Shown piece after piece: positions 9,636 to 13,343 of a DNA stretch of 34,092 nt. Origin of the DNA: a virus. Made by a program: the position numbers and the translations under genes. Below the pieces are notes generated by a model. The model ran no database searches. It saw only the letters and a program-made list of their open reading frames with translations, and was not told the DNA's origin. The DNA lies in IMG/VR virus record IMGVR_UViG_3300029286_000149, positions 1-34,092 of that record; one strand, given 5' to 3'. The first letter of the stretch is position 1. Each line of letters begins with the position of its first letter.

Positions 9636-9788
9636 ATGAAAACCAACAAACGCTACGAACAAACGGAGTTTGATTTCTCTAAAAAGATGAAACGCAAACC
9701 CAAGTCCAACAACCAAAAGAAAAAGCTGATTAAGCAGATCAGAGAGGAAGAAACCCAAATCCAACTTAAATTATCTTATGAACTCTGA
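9636..9788 (+). CDS. Small basic ORF (50 aa) after primase-helicase
   Basis: ATG at 9636 opens a 50-codon frame to TGA at 9786-9788, filling the gap between the helicase stop and the methyltransferase start and overlapping the latter by 11 bases. The product begins MKTNKRYEQTEFDFSKK and has a Lys-rich centre (KMKRKPKSNNQKKKLIK) with a helical, Glu- and Gln-rich C-terminus. This suggests a small nucleic-acid-associated protein, but no family is recognised. Gapless packing between genes is the main support. Confidence 0.55.
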   Translation: MKTNKRYEQTEFDFSKKMKRKPKSNNQKKKLIKQIREEETQIQLKLSYEL

Positions 9789-10401
9789 CCCTAAAAATCT
9801 AAAAGCTATCTACGACGAAATGTATGGGATAAAGCCTCGTCGCGTGGCCGAAGTGGGGGTTAATGATCCACACCTGTGCTCGCTTTTGTCATTTATTAAC
9901 GAGGGTATTCCCACCTTACTTGTCGAACCTTTACCGTCTTGCTGCCAGAATTTGCGTGACGCTTTTACTGGAAAGACAGTAGAAGTTATTGAAGGTGTCA
10001 TAGGCGACAAAGAAGGAAGCGTCCTTTTGTATGACCGTGGGGCGGGTAGTTGGATAGAAGATGTTCCGAAAGGTGGAGCACCGGACGAACACCCAAACGG
10101 TTGCAATACGAAGCGGGAGGAGTTTAATCATAGCTATGTCCGCACGGTGCGAAGCTACCGCTGGCAAATGGTTGATCCCAGCGACATTGACGTTCTTTGC
10201 GTTGATACGGAGGGAGCAGAGTGGTTTGTTGTGCGTGAAATGATTAGCCGACCAGCATTGGTGCGCTGTGAAATGCACTTCCCTCCTACTGGGTGGATGA
10301 ATCCCCATAACGCAGCGATTCGACAGAAAATGGAAGAAATGGGTTATACTGTGATCGGAGAAGACGTAAGTGATGTTCTTTGGGCGAGGACAACTAAATG
10401 A
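9778..10401 (+). CDS. FkbM-type SAM-dependent methyltransferase
   Basis: A 207-residue protein with the FkbM methyltransferase pattern: RRVAEVGVNDP in the place of the glycine-rich SAM loop, LLVEPLPSCCQNL as the acidic strand-2 ligand, VIEGVIGDKEGSVLLY, and the signature DVLCVDTEGAEWFVVREM. FkbM enzymes methylate hydroxyl groups of sugars or small molecules; the target here is unknown. It sits between primase-helicase and DNA polymerase, a slot with no such gene in T7, and overlaps the polymerase start by 4 bases (ATGA). Its base composition looks somewhat GC-richer than the neighbours, which fits an acquired gene. The start at 9778 lacks an SD. Confidence 0.8.
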   Translation: MNSDPKNLKAIYDEMYGIKPRRVAEVGVNDPHLCSLLSFINEGIPTLLVEPLPSCCQNLRDAFTGKTVEVIEGVIGDKEGSVLLYDRGAGSWIEDVPKGGAPDEHPNGCNTKREEFNHSYVRTVRSYRWQMVDPSDIDVLCVDTEGAEWFVVREMISRPALVRCEMHFPPTGWMNPHNAAIRQKMEEMGYTVIGEDVSDVLWARTTK

Positions 10402-12236
10402 CCTTACTTTTTGACACCGAGACAGACCACTTGATTGAGAAAGCTACCAAGGTTCATTGCCTTGTTACTTACAATGTCGAGACAGGTAAAATCAGTCGGT
10501 TCAATTCGCTATTCGGGAATATCGAACAGGGATTGAAACTCCTTGAATCCGCTACGCAAATCGTGGGACACAACTCCCTTGGTTTTGACGTTCCGGTTCT
10601 CAAGAAACTCTACCCTTCCTTCAACCCGAAGCGTGTTCTGGATACCCTCGTGTTTACCCGCTACATCTGGGCAGACCTAAAAGATCGGGACTTCCAACGT
10701 CTGTCAAAAGACGCTGAGTTTCCTAGGAAATTGATTGGTTCTCACAGCCTTAAAGCGTGGGGCTACCGTCTCAAAGTTCTCAAGGGAGACTTTAAGGAAA
10801 ACAACTCCTTTGAAAACTGGTCGCAAGAGATGGAAGATTATTGCGTTCAGGATGTCATGGTTACTAAGCGGCTGTGGGAGCTTGTTCAGGGGAAGACTCC
10901 AGACCCAAGATCCGTTGAATTGGAACACACCTTTGCCGAGCTTATCTACGGTCAGGAAAAAAGTGGTTTCAAGTTCGATGTCCGTAAGGCTCAAGACTTG
11001 TATGCCGAGCTTGCCATGAAGCGGGTGGACATTGAGCAAGAGCTTCAACGTGTCTTTGAACCGAAAATTGAAGTGATGAAAAAGCGGCACTACCTTTTCT
11101 TTGACAAGGTGTTTTCCACAAAGGGGGAAGCTACTGCCTATGCTAAAGTTTGGGCAAGGGAACAAACCATGACCCAAAAGGATGCCCTTGCTCTCATCAA
11201 GGAGGGGGAACCCTTTAAGAAAGAGATTCCCTTCAACTGTGGTAGCCGTGAGGAAATTGCCAGAAGGTTCAAGGAGAAATACGGATGGGAGGCGAAAGAG
11301 TTCACACCTGACGGAAAACCGAAGATGGATGAATCCATTCTCTCGTCCCTTGACTTCCCTGAAGCAAAGCCCTTGCTGGAATACCTGACCATTCAAAAGC
11401 GTATTGGTCAGCTTGCCGAAGGTAAGGAAGCGTGGATTAAGCTGGAACGAAACGGACGTATTCACGGACGGGTCAACACTAACGGAGCCGTTACCGGACG
11501 TTGCACACACAGCAACCCCAACATTGCTCAAGTTCCCGCTGTCCGTGCTGCTTACGGTAAGGAGTGTCGTTCCTTATTTACTATGGATACTGGCAACAAG
11601 TTGGTAGGATGTGACGCTTCAGGTTTGGAGCTACGTTGCCTAGCTCACTACATGGCTAAATGGGATGACGGAGCTTATGTTAAGGAGTTGTTGGAGGGCG
11701 ACATTCATACAGCCAACCAAACGGCTGCTGGACTCCCTACTCGTGACGATGCCAAGACCTTTATCTACGCTTTCCTTTACGGTGCGGGGGATGCCAAGAT
11801 CGGCTCTATCATCGGTAAGGGGCAAGAAGAAGGTAAAGCCTTGCGGGAAAACTTCCTACGGAAGACCCCTGCTCTCCGCTACCTTAAAGAAGCTGTGGAA
11901 AAGGCTTCAAGTCGGGGATACCTTATCGGTTTGGACGGAAGACATCTTGTAGTTCGTTCCCAACACGCAGCACTTAACACCCTGCTACAATCGGCAGGAG
12001 CCTTGGTTATGAAGAAAGCGGCTTGTTTCCTGTGGGAAGGATACCGTGGGGTATTTCCTTGGAAGTTTGTTGCTAACATCCATGACGAATGGCAAATCGA
12101 AGTAGCGGCTGAAAACGCACCCCTCATAGGCTCTGCGTCAGTTCAAGCCATGAAAGACTCAGGGGAATATTTCAGCTTCCGCTGTCCCTTGGACGGAGAG
12201 TTCCGTATCGGTAATAATTGGGCAGAAACACACTAA
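10398..12236 (+). CDS. Family A DNA polymerase (T7 gp5-like)
   Basis: A 612-residue replicative polymerase. The N-terminal 3'-5' exonuclease domain starts at once with D6 and E8 (LLFDTETD) and includes QIVGHNSLGFDVPVL and a later YCVQDVMVT. The polymerase domain has motif A with D406 (GCDASGLELRCLAHYMA, nearly identical to T7), motif B (DDAKTFIYAFLYGAGD) and motif C H562-D563-E564 (ANIHDEWQ). T7 gp5 is 704 aa, so this one is shorter, possibly in the thumb or thioredoxin-binding region. No processivity factor is encoded in the window. Confidence 0.97.
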   Translation: MTLLFDTETDHLIEKATKVHCLVTYNVETGKISRFNSLFGNIEQGLKLLESATQIVGHNSLGFDVPVLKKLYPSFNPKRVLDTLVFTRYIWADLKDRDFQRLSKDAEFPRKLIGSHSLKAWGYRLKVLKGDFKENNSFENWSQEMEDYCVQDVMVTKRLWELVQGKTPDPRSVELEHTFAELIYGQEKSGFKFDVRKAQDLYAELAMKRVDIEQELQRVFEPKIEVMKKRHYLFFDKVFSTKGEATAYAKVWAREQTMTQKDALALIKEGEPFKKEIPFNCGSREEIARRFKEKYGWEAKEFTPDGKPKMDESILSSLDFPEAKPLLEYLTIQKRIGQLAEGKEAWIKLERNGRIHGRVNTNGAVTGRCTHSNPNIAQVPAVRAAYGKECRSLFTMDTGNKLVGCDASGLELRCLAHYMAKWDDGAYVKELLEGDIHTANQTAAGLPTRDDAKTFIYAFLYGAGDAKIGSIIGKGQEEGKALRENFLRKTPALRYLKEAVEKASSRGYLIGLDGRHLVVRSQHAALNTLLQSAGALVMKKAACFLWEGYRGVFPWKFVANIHDEWQIEVAAENAPLIGSASVQAMKDSGEYFSFRCPLDGEFRIGNNWAETH

Positions 12237-12237
12237 C

Positions 12238-12588
12238 ATGGACATAAAAGACACCGATCTAGCTTACGTTGGAGGATACTTTGATGGAGAAGCGTGTATT
12301 AGGTGGTCATCCTATTCACCTAAAATTGGAGTCCAAAGTTGTAACCCAAACCCCTTAAATTTTATTTGTAATCTTTTTAATACTGGGAACAAAGTGATTT
12401 TAGATAAGCGAAGAACCTCAGTAGGAAAACCTGTGTATCGTTTAGAATACTACGGAATAAAAGCTATAAATATTTTATCACAAGTTAGCCCCTACATGAT
12501 TGAGAAAAAACCTCAATCCGAGAAATTAATACAAATGTTTAACCTAAGAGAAGAAATCAAAGCAGAAAAAAATAAACGACATAAATGA
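12238..12588 (+). CDS. Freestanding LAGLIDADG-type homing endonuclease-like protein
   Basis: A 116-residue protein with one LAGLIDADG-family helix, YVGGYFDGEACI (residues 10-21, with D16 and E18), followed by the pattern seen in this family: a beta strand region (YRLEYYGI) and a C-terminal PYMIEKKPQSEKLIQMF. One motif means it would act as a homodimer to cut DNA and spread its own gene. It begins 2 bases after the polymerase stop and overlaps the exonuclease start by 4 bases (ATGA), so it is inserted without breaking either gene. It is AT-richer than its neighbours and ends in a Lys-rich tail, as expected of a selfish insertion. Catalytic activity is inferred. Confidence 0.82.
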   Translation: MDIKDTDLAYVGGYFDGEACIRWSSYSPKIGVQSCNPNPLNFICNLFNTGNKVILDKRRTSVGKPVYRLEYYGIKAINILSQVSPYMIEKKPQSEKLIQMFNLREEIKAEKNKRHK

Positions 12589-13343
12589 AACGCACACTAC
12601 TCATTGACGGAGATACAATCGCTTACCAGCAATCAATCATATCGGAAGTTCCGGTAGATTGGGGTGATGGGTTTTGGACACTACACAGCTACGCTAAAGA
12701 AACCATAGCGGCTGTGGAAGACCGGATCGTTAACTACAAAAATGATCTGGAAGCTGATGAAATTGTTATCGCTTTATCAGATTCCAAAAACTTCAGGATG
12801 TCGATTCTTCCTTCCTACAAGGAAAACCGCAAAAAGGGCCGTAAACCCCTGTGCTTGGGGGATGTCCGAGAACATCTCATCTACAACCACAAAGCTGTAA
12901 TCATCCCTACCCTAGAGGCTGATGACGTTATCGGGATCATGGCTACGGAAAACACCCACCGGAACACAGAGTTCATCATTGTAGGCATTGATAAGGACTA
13001 CAAAACCATTCCAGCCAAGACCTACAACCCGAACAAACCGGACTTGGGGATTGTTGAGCAAAGCCCTTTGGAAGCTGATCGGTTCTGGATGATGCAATCC
13101 CTTATGGGGGATGCTGTGGACGGTTACAAAGGCTGTCCTACAGTCGGCCCCAAGAAAGCTGAAACACTGCTTGGGGAGCTAAAAGACTTTGATTCCATGT
13201 GGCTCAAAGTGGTGGAAACCTATGAGAAACAAGGACTTACACGGCTTGACGCTTTGGTTAATGCCAGAGTTGCCCGAATCCTCCGCTTTGGCGATTACAA
13301 CAAAAAAACAAAACACATAAATATATGGACACCAAGTATTTAG
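12585..13343 (+). CDS. 5'-3' exonuclease (T7 gp6-like, FEN/PIN family)
   Basis: A 252-residue exonuclease that would remove RNA primers and degrade host DNA. Acidic metal-binding residues of the FEN fold are visible in LIDGDTIAY (residues 5-13), LEADDVIGIMA, GIDKDYKTIP and MGDAVDGYKGCPTVGPKKAETLL, the last including the helix-three-turn-helix DNA-binding element. Length and position after DNA polymerase match T7 gp6 (300 aa, slightly longer). It starts within the homing endonuclease stop and overlaps the next gene by 19 bases. Confidence 0.93.
   Translation: MKRTLLIDGDTIAYQQSIISEVPVDWGDGFWTLHSYAKETIAAVEDRIVNYKNDLEADEIVIALSDSKNFRMSILPSYKENRKKGRKPLCLGDVREHLIYNHKAVIIPTLEADDVIGIMATENTHRNTEFIIVGIDKDYKTIPAKTYNPNKPDLGIVEQSPLEADRFWMMQSLMGDAVDGYKGCPTVGPKKAETLLGELKDFDSMWLKVVETYEKQGLTRLDALVNARVARILRFGDYNKKTKHINIWTPSI

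Follow-up and report, generated by a model that had tools for sequence, protein, structure and literature searches.

We analyzed a 34,092-nucleotide stretch of viral DNA (IMG/VR record IMGVR_UViG_3300029286_000149, positions 1 to 34,092; referred to below as the window) and, within it, an open reading frame (ORF) at positions 12238 to 12588 that lies between the genes for a DNA polymerase and a 5'-3' exonuclease. We consider it probable (approximately 0.7) that this ORF encodes a free-standing LAGLIDADG homing endonuclease that has its target in the 3' end of the polymerase gene and that is transmitted along with a polymerase tip that resists it. The gene has resided in one polymerase clade for a long time. 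In addition, sequence comparisons provide good support for the view that, in the relative L088, the endonuclease gene and the adjoining ~220 bp of polymerase sequence come from the window's lineage and that the rest of the polymerase gene and the exonuclease gene do not. What is surprising about the locus is this fixed residence through a clade together with movement in the company of the polymerase tip.

Identification of a single-motif LAGLIDADG protein

The Pfam profile LAGLIDADG_3 matched the window protein alone with an E value of 0.071 and 13.8 bits, under the cutoff of 22.5 bits. Scanning the 11 orthologues of the endonuclease that form our profile A1 against Pfam resulted in E values of ≤0.01 for 7 of the 11 (judged by E value). 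Among PDB sequences, the A1 profile matched I-MsoI (1m5x; E value, 6.1e-6) and I-CvuI (5a74; 6.1e-5) and, weakly, I-CreI (1u0c; 0.0046). The AlphaFold model of the window protein has a mean predicted local distance difference test score of 94.2 and a predicted template modeling score of 0.82. I-MsoI and I-CreI chains were at the top of the list when this model was submitted to Foldseek (E value, 2e-5), and VIA-align superimposed it on I-CvuI over 104 residues at 2.8 Å (Z score, 13.5). The predicted structure has the LAGLIDADG fold, and I-CreI-family chains head both structure-match lists.

The 116-residue protein contains a single LAGLIDADG helix, AYVGGYFDGEAC, which ends in a catalytic acidic residue (D16-G17-E18 aligned to the motif of I-MsoI and I-CreI). 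D16 and E18 are present in all 73 aligned sequences, and K90 and Q93 are present in 72 of the 72 that have those positions in view; the conservation of these four residues indicates that the protein has the catalytic residues expected of a single-motif LAGLIDADG enzyme. We take D20 and lysine 98 of I-CreI to be the counterparts of E18 and K90, respectively. A first-pass annotation, made from the sequence of the window, had described the gene as encoding a free-standing single-motif LAGLIDADG endonuclease and had named missing catalytic acidic residues as evidence that would speak against it; the I-CreI-like predicted fold and the invariant D16 and E18 bear out this assignment. I-CreI-type LAGLIDADG enzymes are homodimers that cut sites of 20 to 22 bp and leave 4-nt 3' overhangs. 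From its family membership, the window protein would be expected to dimerize and to cut DNA, and it is probably a homodimer of the I-CreI kind.

The PHROGs family of the window protein is 5046 (E value, 1.6e-12), which is labeled "HNH endonuclease." Pfam scans revealed no HNH family (window proteins at an E value of ≤1; A1 members at ≤0.01), and an HNH enzyme was rejected because both the profile and the predicted fold are of the LAGLIDADG type. This label on PHROG 5046 proteins is a naming error that conceals a LAGLIDADG family. LAGLIDADG proteins bear the same label in RefSeq records such as NC_022751 and NC_055773, and some of the matching GenBank records say LAGLIDADG. A chance ORF was also rejected, since the gene occurs at 73 polymerase-linked loci, evolves under purifying selection with a low ratio of nonsynonymous to synonymous substitution rates (dN/dS), retains invariant active-site residues, and has a confidently predicted fold with I-CreI-family matches. 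The ORF is thus real, and its boundaries had been placed exactly.

The features of the locus are as follows:
12238 to 12588, + strand: gene for the single-motif LAGLIDADG protein, 116 amino acids (ORF call, profile, predicted fold, alignment)
10398 to 12236, + strand: T7-like family A DNA polymerase, 612 amino acids, uninterrupted, C terminus NWAETH (PF00476; E value, 1.7e-43)
12585 to 13343, + strand: 5'-3' exonuclease (PF02739; E value, 1.3e-11), outside the tract swapped in L088
12283 to 12291, + strand: codons of D16-G17-E18, which supply the acidic residues of the LAGLIDADG motif (aligned with I-MsoI and I-CreI; D16 and E18 conserved in 73 of 73 sequences)
12505 to 12507, + strand: codon of K90, the counterpart by alignment of the I-CreI active-site lysine (conserved in 72 of the 72 sequences that cover it)
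12017 to 12236, + strand: 3' tip of the polymerase gene, the putative holder of the target (position transferred from the L088 tract, -219 to +350 relative to the polymerase stop)

The endonuclease gene has a plain ATG start one base past the polymerase stop, and its end overlaps the exonuclease start by 4 nt, so that it sits flush between two unbroken genes, as the first-pass annotation had stated. Its AT richness is likewise evident, with a GC content of 33.3% versus 43.8% for the whole window; an equally low value is reached in 1.3% of 351-bp segments.

Lateral replacement of the gene together with the polymerase tip

L088 and its relative L089 are 93% identical in the polymerase and 96% in the exonuclease but only 44% in the endonuclease; the L088 endonuclease shares 71% identity with its counterpart in L083, a member of the window's lineage. 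For several analyses, L001 (35,178 bases), which matches the window at five 200-base probes, was used as a stand-in for it. The endonuclease tree grouped L088 with L001, L083, and L002 (support, 98/98) and rejected its placement with L089, L005, and L007 (P = 0.014). The exonuclease tree grouped L088 with L089, L005, and L007 (99/99) and rejected the window-lineage grouping (P = 0.0004), which was also rejected by the polymerase tree (P = 0.036). The tract of window-lineage type in L088 begins at -219 when strict sites are considered and at -228 when all sites are, and it extends to +350, just beyond the end of the gene. Strict informative sites were divided 22:3 inside the tract and 19:213 outside it, a distribution reached in 0 of 5,000 permutations, and triples repeated the result. 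The gene has thus moved laterally with co-conversion of its flank, in a tract of the homing type; this is one well-resolved event, and others are suggested.

Because L089, L005, and L007 all carry a version of the gene, the recipient of the swap was probably already occupied. The incoming enzyme would then have acted independently of an empty junction, which favors a target inside the replaced tract, either in the polymerase tip or in the resident gene. The first-pass annotation had proposed a target in the polymerase or exonuclease gene of competing phages. Since the swapped tract takes in the 3' end of the former and leaves out the latter, the polymerase half of this proposal is favored and the exonuclease half loses ground.

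Recombination segments were located within -350 to +365 in 14 of 17 cases in the gene-bearing sets (31 sequences) versus 12 of 56 in the gene-lacking sets (46 sequences). Of the 12 segments in clade A, 7 begin at polymerase positions -251 to -177 and the other 5 elsewhere.

Occurrence, residence, and empty junctions

The endonuclease gene is located immediately after the polymerase gene of many uncultured T7-like phages, and we found it at 73 distinct polymerase-linked loci, the window's own sequence (L001) included. The close relatives fetched carry it at the same junction in all 12 loci with the junction in view. Ten of these have polymerases that are 77.7 to 94% identical (L002 to L008, L083, L088, and L089), and two have cut polymerases (L086, 142 residues at 89%; L091, 58 residues at 69%); the gene end is cut off in L008, and L009, which stops short of the junction, was not counted. 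The endonuclease protein is the same in L002, L003, L004, and L086. In the viral profile scan, a T7-like polymerase is directly upstream in 77 of the 80 loci fetched (the best 80 of 260 relatives); of the remaining three, L140 is cut by the contig end, and L159 and L169 are located elsewhere. The L159 copy precedes a capsid-type gene, and the neighbors of the L169 copy gave no Pfam match. Because only the best 80 of the 260 relatives were kept (two other relative collections also comprise the best 80 each), copies in other positions are undersampled.

The gene is directly behind the polymerase in 65 of 163 usable polymerase loci. On the polymerase tree of these loci (FastTree, midpoint root, many long branches), presence and absence require 5 changes, compared with a mean of 51 after shuffling. 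The smallest clade with all 65 gene-bearing loci has 89 members, of which 24 lack the gene; 41 of the 89 were fetched independently of the endonuclease (17 with and 24 without the gene). Nineteen of the 24 form one nested subclade. The cleanest empty sites are found in 15 of the 24, in which the exonuclease match starts 4 to 30 nt past the polymerase stop. Gene remnants were seen in none of these 24 members (best tblastn E value, 0.005 over 24 residues, in L016). The gene is thus optional between two conserved genes, with empty junctions in the clade and none among the close relatives fetched. The first-pass annotation had named a gene shared by every relative, with empty sites absent, as an argument against its view; this is the situation locally (12 of 12 close relatives) but not globally, given the near-flush empty junctions of the nested subclade. 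Its picture of relatives that lack the gene does not hold for the close relatives fetched, and the gene has long been resident in the clade. A recent stray insertion was rejected for the same reasons.

Divergence and selection

The endonuclease gene is under purifying selection, although it changes far more rapidly than the genes on either side. Its dN/dS could be calculated for 18 of 21 pairs and is between 0 and 0.44, with several pairs near saturation. Nonsynonymous divergence of the gene exceeds that of both flanks in 17 of the 21 pairs, and synonymous divergence does so in 14; these pairs, like the 17 near pairs used for residue rates, were chosen by hand and share sequences. The synonymous excess, together with the conflict among the L088 trees, led us to reject fast point change alone. 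In pairs with polymerases of at least 90% identity (n = 18), the mean identity is 82% (standard deviation [SD], 16) for the endonuclease and 95% (SD, 4) for the exonuclease. The dips in identity fall mostly on the endonuclease gene and are deepest at approximately +120 to +240 in most pairs shown; several pairs have a smaller dip in the polymerase gene at -240 to -60. Within the protein, entropy and the near-pair replacement rate both peak in strand 54-59 (rate, 0.58) and are lowest in the catalytic loop 87-90 (0.07).

Proposed mechanism and alternative explanations

Under the homing endonuclease reading, translation of the enzyme would be coupled to that of the DNA polymerase gene immediately before it. 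In a cell infected by two related phages, it would cleave the terminal ~220 bp of the polymerase gene of the partner with a sensitive tip, and repair from the donor would copy the endonuclease gene along with the donor's resistant polymerase tip. Since nearly all close relatives already hold a version, spread would take the form of one allele replacing another, which would lead to quick change in the recognition part while the active site stays frozen. The L088 swap with the polymerase end is what would be predicted for a selfish element whose spread depends on cutting the DNA of rivals. Within this reading, the polymerase tip as the target is the weakest part, and the resistance of the donor tip is likewise deduced from the tract. 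A more tentative extension is a two-part selfish cassette, in which the endonuclease is paired with an immune target in the form of the terminal ~220 bp of the polymerase gene and the two jointly replace resident cassettes.

A number of data weigh against homing with a target in the polymerase tip. (i) No empty site was found among the 12 close relatives with the junction in view, and a gene homing into empty sites would not usually show so few gains and losses (5 changes among 163 loci); degenerate copies were not noticed, in a search by profile and intact frame that would miss some of them. (ii) In the polymerase tree, support for the vertical place of L088 with L089, L005, and L007 is modest (65/91), and the groupings tested on the trees were named after the identities had been seen. 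(iii) Of the 17 recombination segments in gene-bearing sets, set A accounts for 12, set B for 2, and set F for 3 (located elsewhere), with none from C, D, and G, and they are nonindependent events. (iv) Synonymous divergence is not above that of both flanks in 7 of the 21 pairs, so a swap is not needed for every pair. (v) The nonsynonymous excess at the polymerase tip (codons -20 to -40) is to some extent seen in phages that lack the gene as well (1.7 times the average, versus 3.1 times with the gene), in a comparison of 11 gene-bearing with 20 gene-lacking pairs that is suggestive only.

Stable residence with few changes on the tree, purifying selection on a protein with an invariant active site, and a location in the replication operon in 77 of those best 80 loci would also be expected of a former homing endonuclease that has been domesticated as a nuclease or DNA-binding regulator, works with the replication genes, and is kept for that function. 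We regard this as unlikely, as the gene was replaced laterally in L088 together with the polymerase tip, a nested subclade does without it, unrelated nucleases fill the slot elsewhere, the recognition part differs between near-identical phages, and the window phage already encodes a gp3-type endonuclease. It is quite improbable that the gene is a passenger, that is, an accessory gene exchanged by ordinary homologous recombination through its conserved flanks, with its own cutting not the driving force. Gene-lacking T7-like phages do recombine widely in or beside the polymerase gene (56 segments in 46 sequences), but where the gene is present the segments concentrate on it and on the tip (14 of 17 versus 12 of 56), and all 73 aligned sequences retain the same active site. 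A role as an intron helper in collaborative homing or as an intron maturase is hardly credible and was rejected: the reading frame of the neighboring polymerase gene is intact, and no Rfam family reached its gathering score in the window and seven relatives, so that no intron was detected in these eight sources.

The locus offers a homing-type nuclease fixed at one place across a phage clade with its active site retained, and its residence may be maintained by the replacement of one allele by another, each bringing along part of the essential polymerase gene. If the cassette exists, the catalytic end of a phage replication enzyme would be shaped by a homing endonuclease. Whether selfish endonucleases have such an influence on the 3' end of a replication gene can be tested directly at this locus, which is also a source of small natural LAGLIDADG proteins with recognition strands that differ between near-identical genomes.

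Comparison with known homing endonucleases

I-CreI, I-MsoI, and I-CvuI are group I intron-encoded homing endonucleases with a single LAGLIDADG motif. The window protein resembles them in its predicted fold, its motif, and the positions of the acidic residues and the lysine; it differs in its length (116 versus 150 to 170 residues) and in being encoded by an intron-free gene linked to a phage polymerase gene, and it is 15 to 22% identical to them in the structural alignments shown. Free-standing phage homing endonucleases are usually of the GIY-YIG or HNH type.

According to the sections on intronless homing in a T4 review (PMC2988022), the cassettes lack their own promoter and overlap the upstream gene, the cut sites are in the neighboring gene away from the insertion point, and the flank is co-converted. 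As far as these sections go, the anatomy of the window locus agrees with T4-type intronless homing. It shares with T4 SegF, SegG, and MobE the optional gene between conserved genes, the upstream coupling (predicted in the window), and the co-conversion of the flank (PMC2988022, same sections), as well as cognate places that are filled by differing enzymes (PMC2988022 and PMC10448857, in the parts on such places). In contrast, the T4 enzymes are of the GIY-YIG or HNH type, the main text of the review does not contain the word LAGLIDADG (PMC2988022), and the window-type site is almost always occupied in close relatives. As described in parts of PMC3428280, PMC6083498, and PMC10448857, homing enzymes are also found at the polymerase in the introns of phiI, W31, and Pf-WMP3 and in the collaborative homing of T3; unlike the intron-free LAGLIDADG gene of the window, these are intron-associated and of the HNH or endonuclease VII type. 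The same sources and PMC2988022, within the portions concerned, describe enzymes of the HNH, GIY-YIG, and endonuclease VII types, along with introns, for T7-like polymerase genes and phage LAGLIDADG enzymes that occur partly as inteins. In the parts of the open-access literature covered, we found no report of a LAGLIDADG gene behind a T7-like polymerase.

Related LAGLIDADG proteins, 24 to 35% identical, are present in Gordonia, Mycobacterium, Streptomyces, Caulobacter, and Sphingobium phages and in cyanophage PP. A search with four family proteins of 50,697 cultured-phage records revealed none behind a T7-like polymerase, with the neighbors viewed for cyanophage PP only, in which the relative (L095:4014-4439; 33% identical) is between the terminase and head-tail adaptor genes. 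Several of the Gordonia and Mycobacterium phage relatives are at a DNA methylase, by feature label. The genome_contigs scan provided 11 distant relatives (22 to 30% identical), and the flanks of four were inspected. One directly follows a DNA methylase and precedes a family A polymerase by ~600 bp (L250:3205-6690, on a contig binned as Candidatus Eisenbacteria); the other three (L252, L256, and L258) adjoin unrelated bacterial genes.

A nuclease slot, unusual gene starts, and neighboring genes

Of the 97 first ORFs found behind the polymerase in gene-lacking loci, we scanned 54 picked by hand, having excluded near copies, exonuclease ORFs, and some others. The Pfam matches were T5orf172 (14 ORFs), PDDEXK_5 (8), and Endonuclease_7 (2). 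The presence of varied nucleases directly behind the polymerase marks this position as a nuclease slot, the occupant of which varies by clade (LAGLIDADG, GIY-YIG T5orf172, PD-(D/E)XK, or endonuclease VII). The gene-lacking relatives L042 to L080 exemplify the other occupants. This is in line with the account, in the relevant part of PMC10448857, of phage homing endonuclease islands, whose cognate places may carry homologues or other classes.

In 26 of the 65 gene-bearing loci (for example, L124, L138, L139, and L119), the endonuclease frame has no ATG, GTG, or TTG from the polymerase stop to the LAGLIDADG motif, and in 22 of these 26 it is in the +1 frame relative to the polymerase. The frame is open upstream for a median of 171.5 nt in those loci versus 47 nt in gene-lacking loci (n = 98), values uncorrected for kinship or base composition, and in-frame start codons inside the polymerase gene are present in all 22 +1-frame loci. 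Loci of this kind may use a start inside the polymerase gene, a nonstandard start, or a +1 frameshift, and in the 22 loci a minor polymerase-endonuclease fusion may be made by +1 frameshifting. In 38 loci (for example, L019:7084-7302, L021:7059-7268, and L074:2313-2522), a conserved ORF of ~70 amino acids separates the endonuclease gene from the exonuclease gene; of 15 aligned sequences (A3), 1 matched a PHROG (25618, no function).

The gene order of the window is T7-like (RNA polymerase, gp2.5-type single-stranded-DNA-binding protein, endonuclease, primase-helicase, polymerase, LAGLIDADG gene, and exonuclease), followed by a head-tail adaptor gene and then major head genes. Upstream, an FkbM-type methyltransferase gene at 9778 to 10401 (PF05050; E value, 2.1e-8) overlaps the polymerase gene start by 4 nt. 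The ORF at 1983 to 3032 matches a tyrosine-type integrase family (PHROG 1; E value, 1.8e-55), which suggests a temperate life for this T7-like phage, and the ORF at 342 to 1262 is glutamine amidotransferase-like (PHROG 4736; E value, 2e-9).
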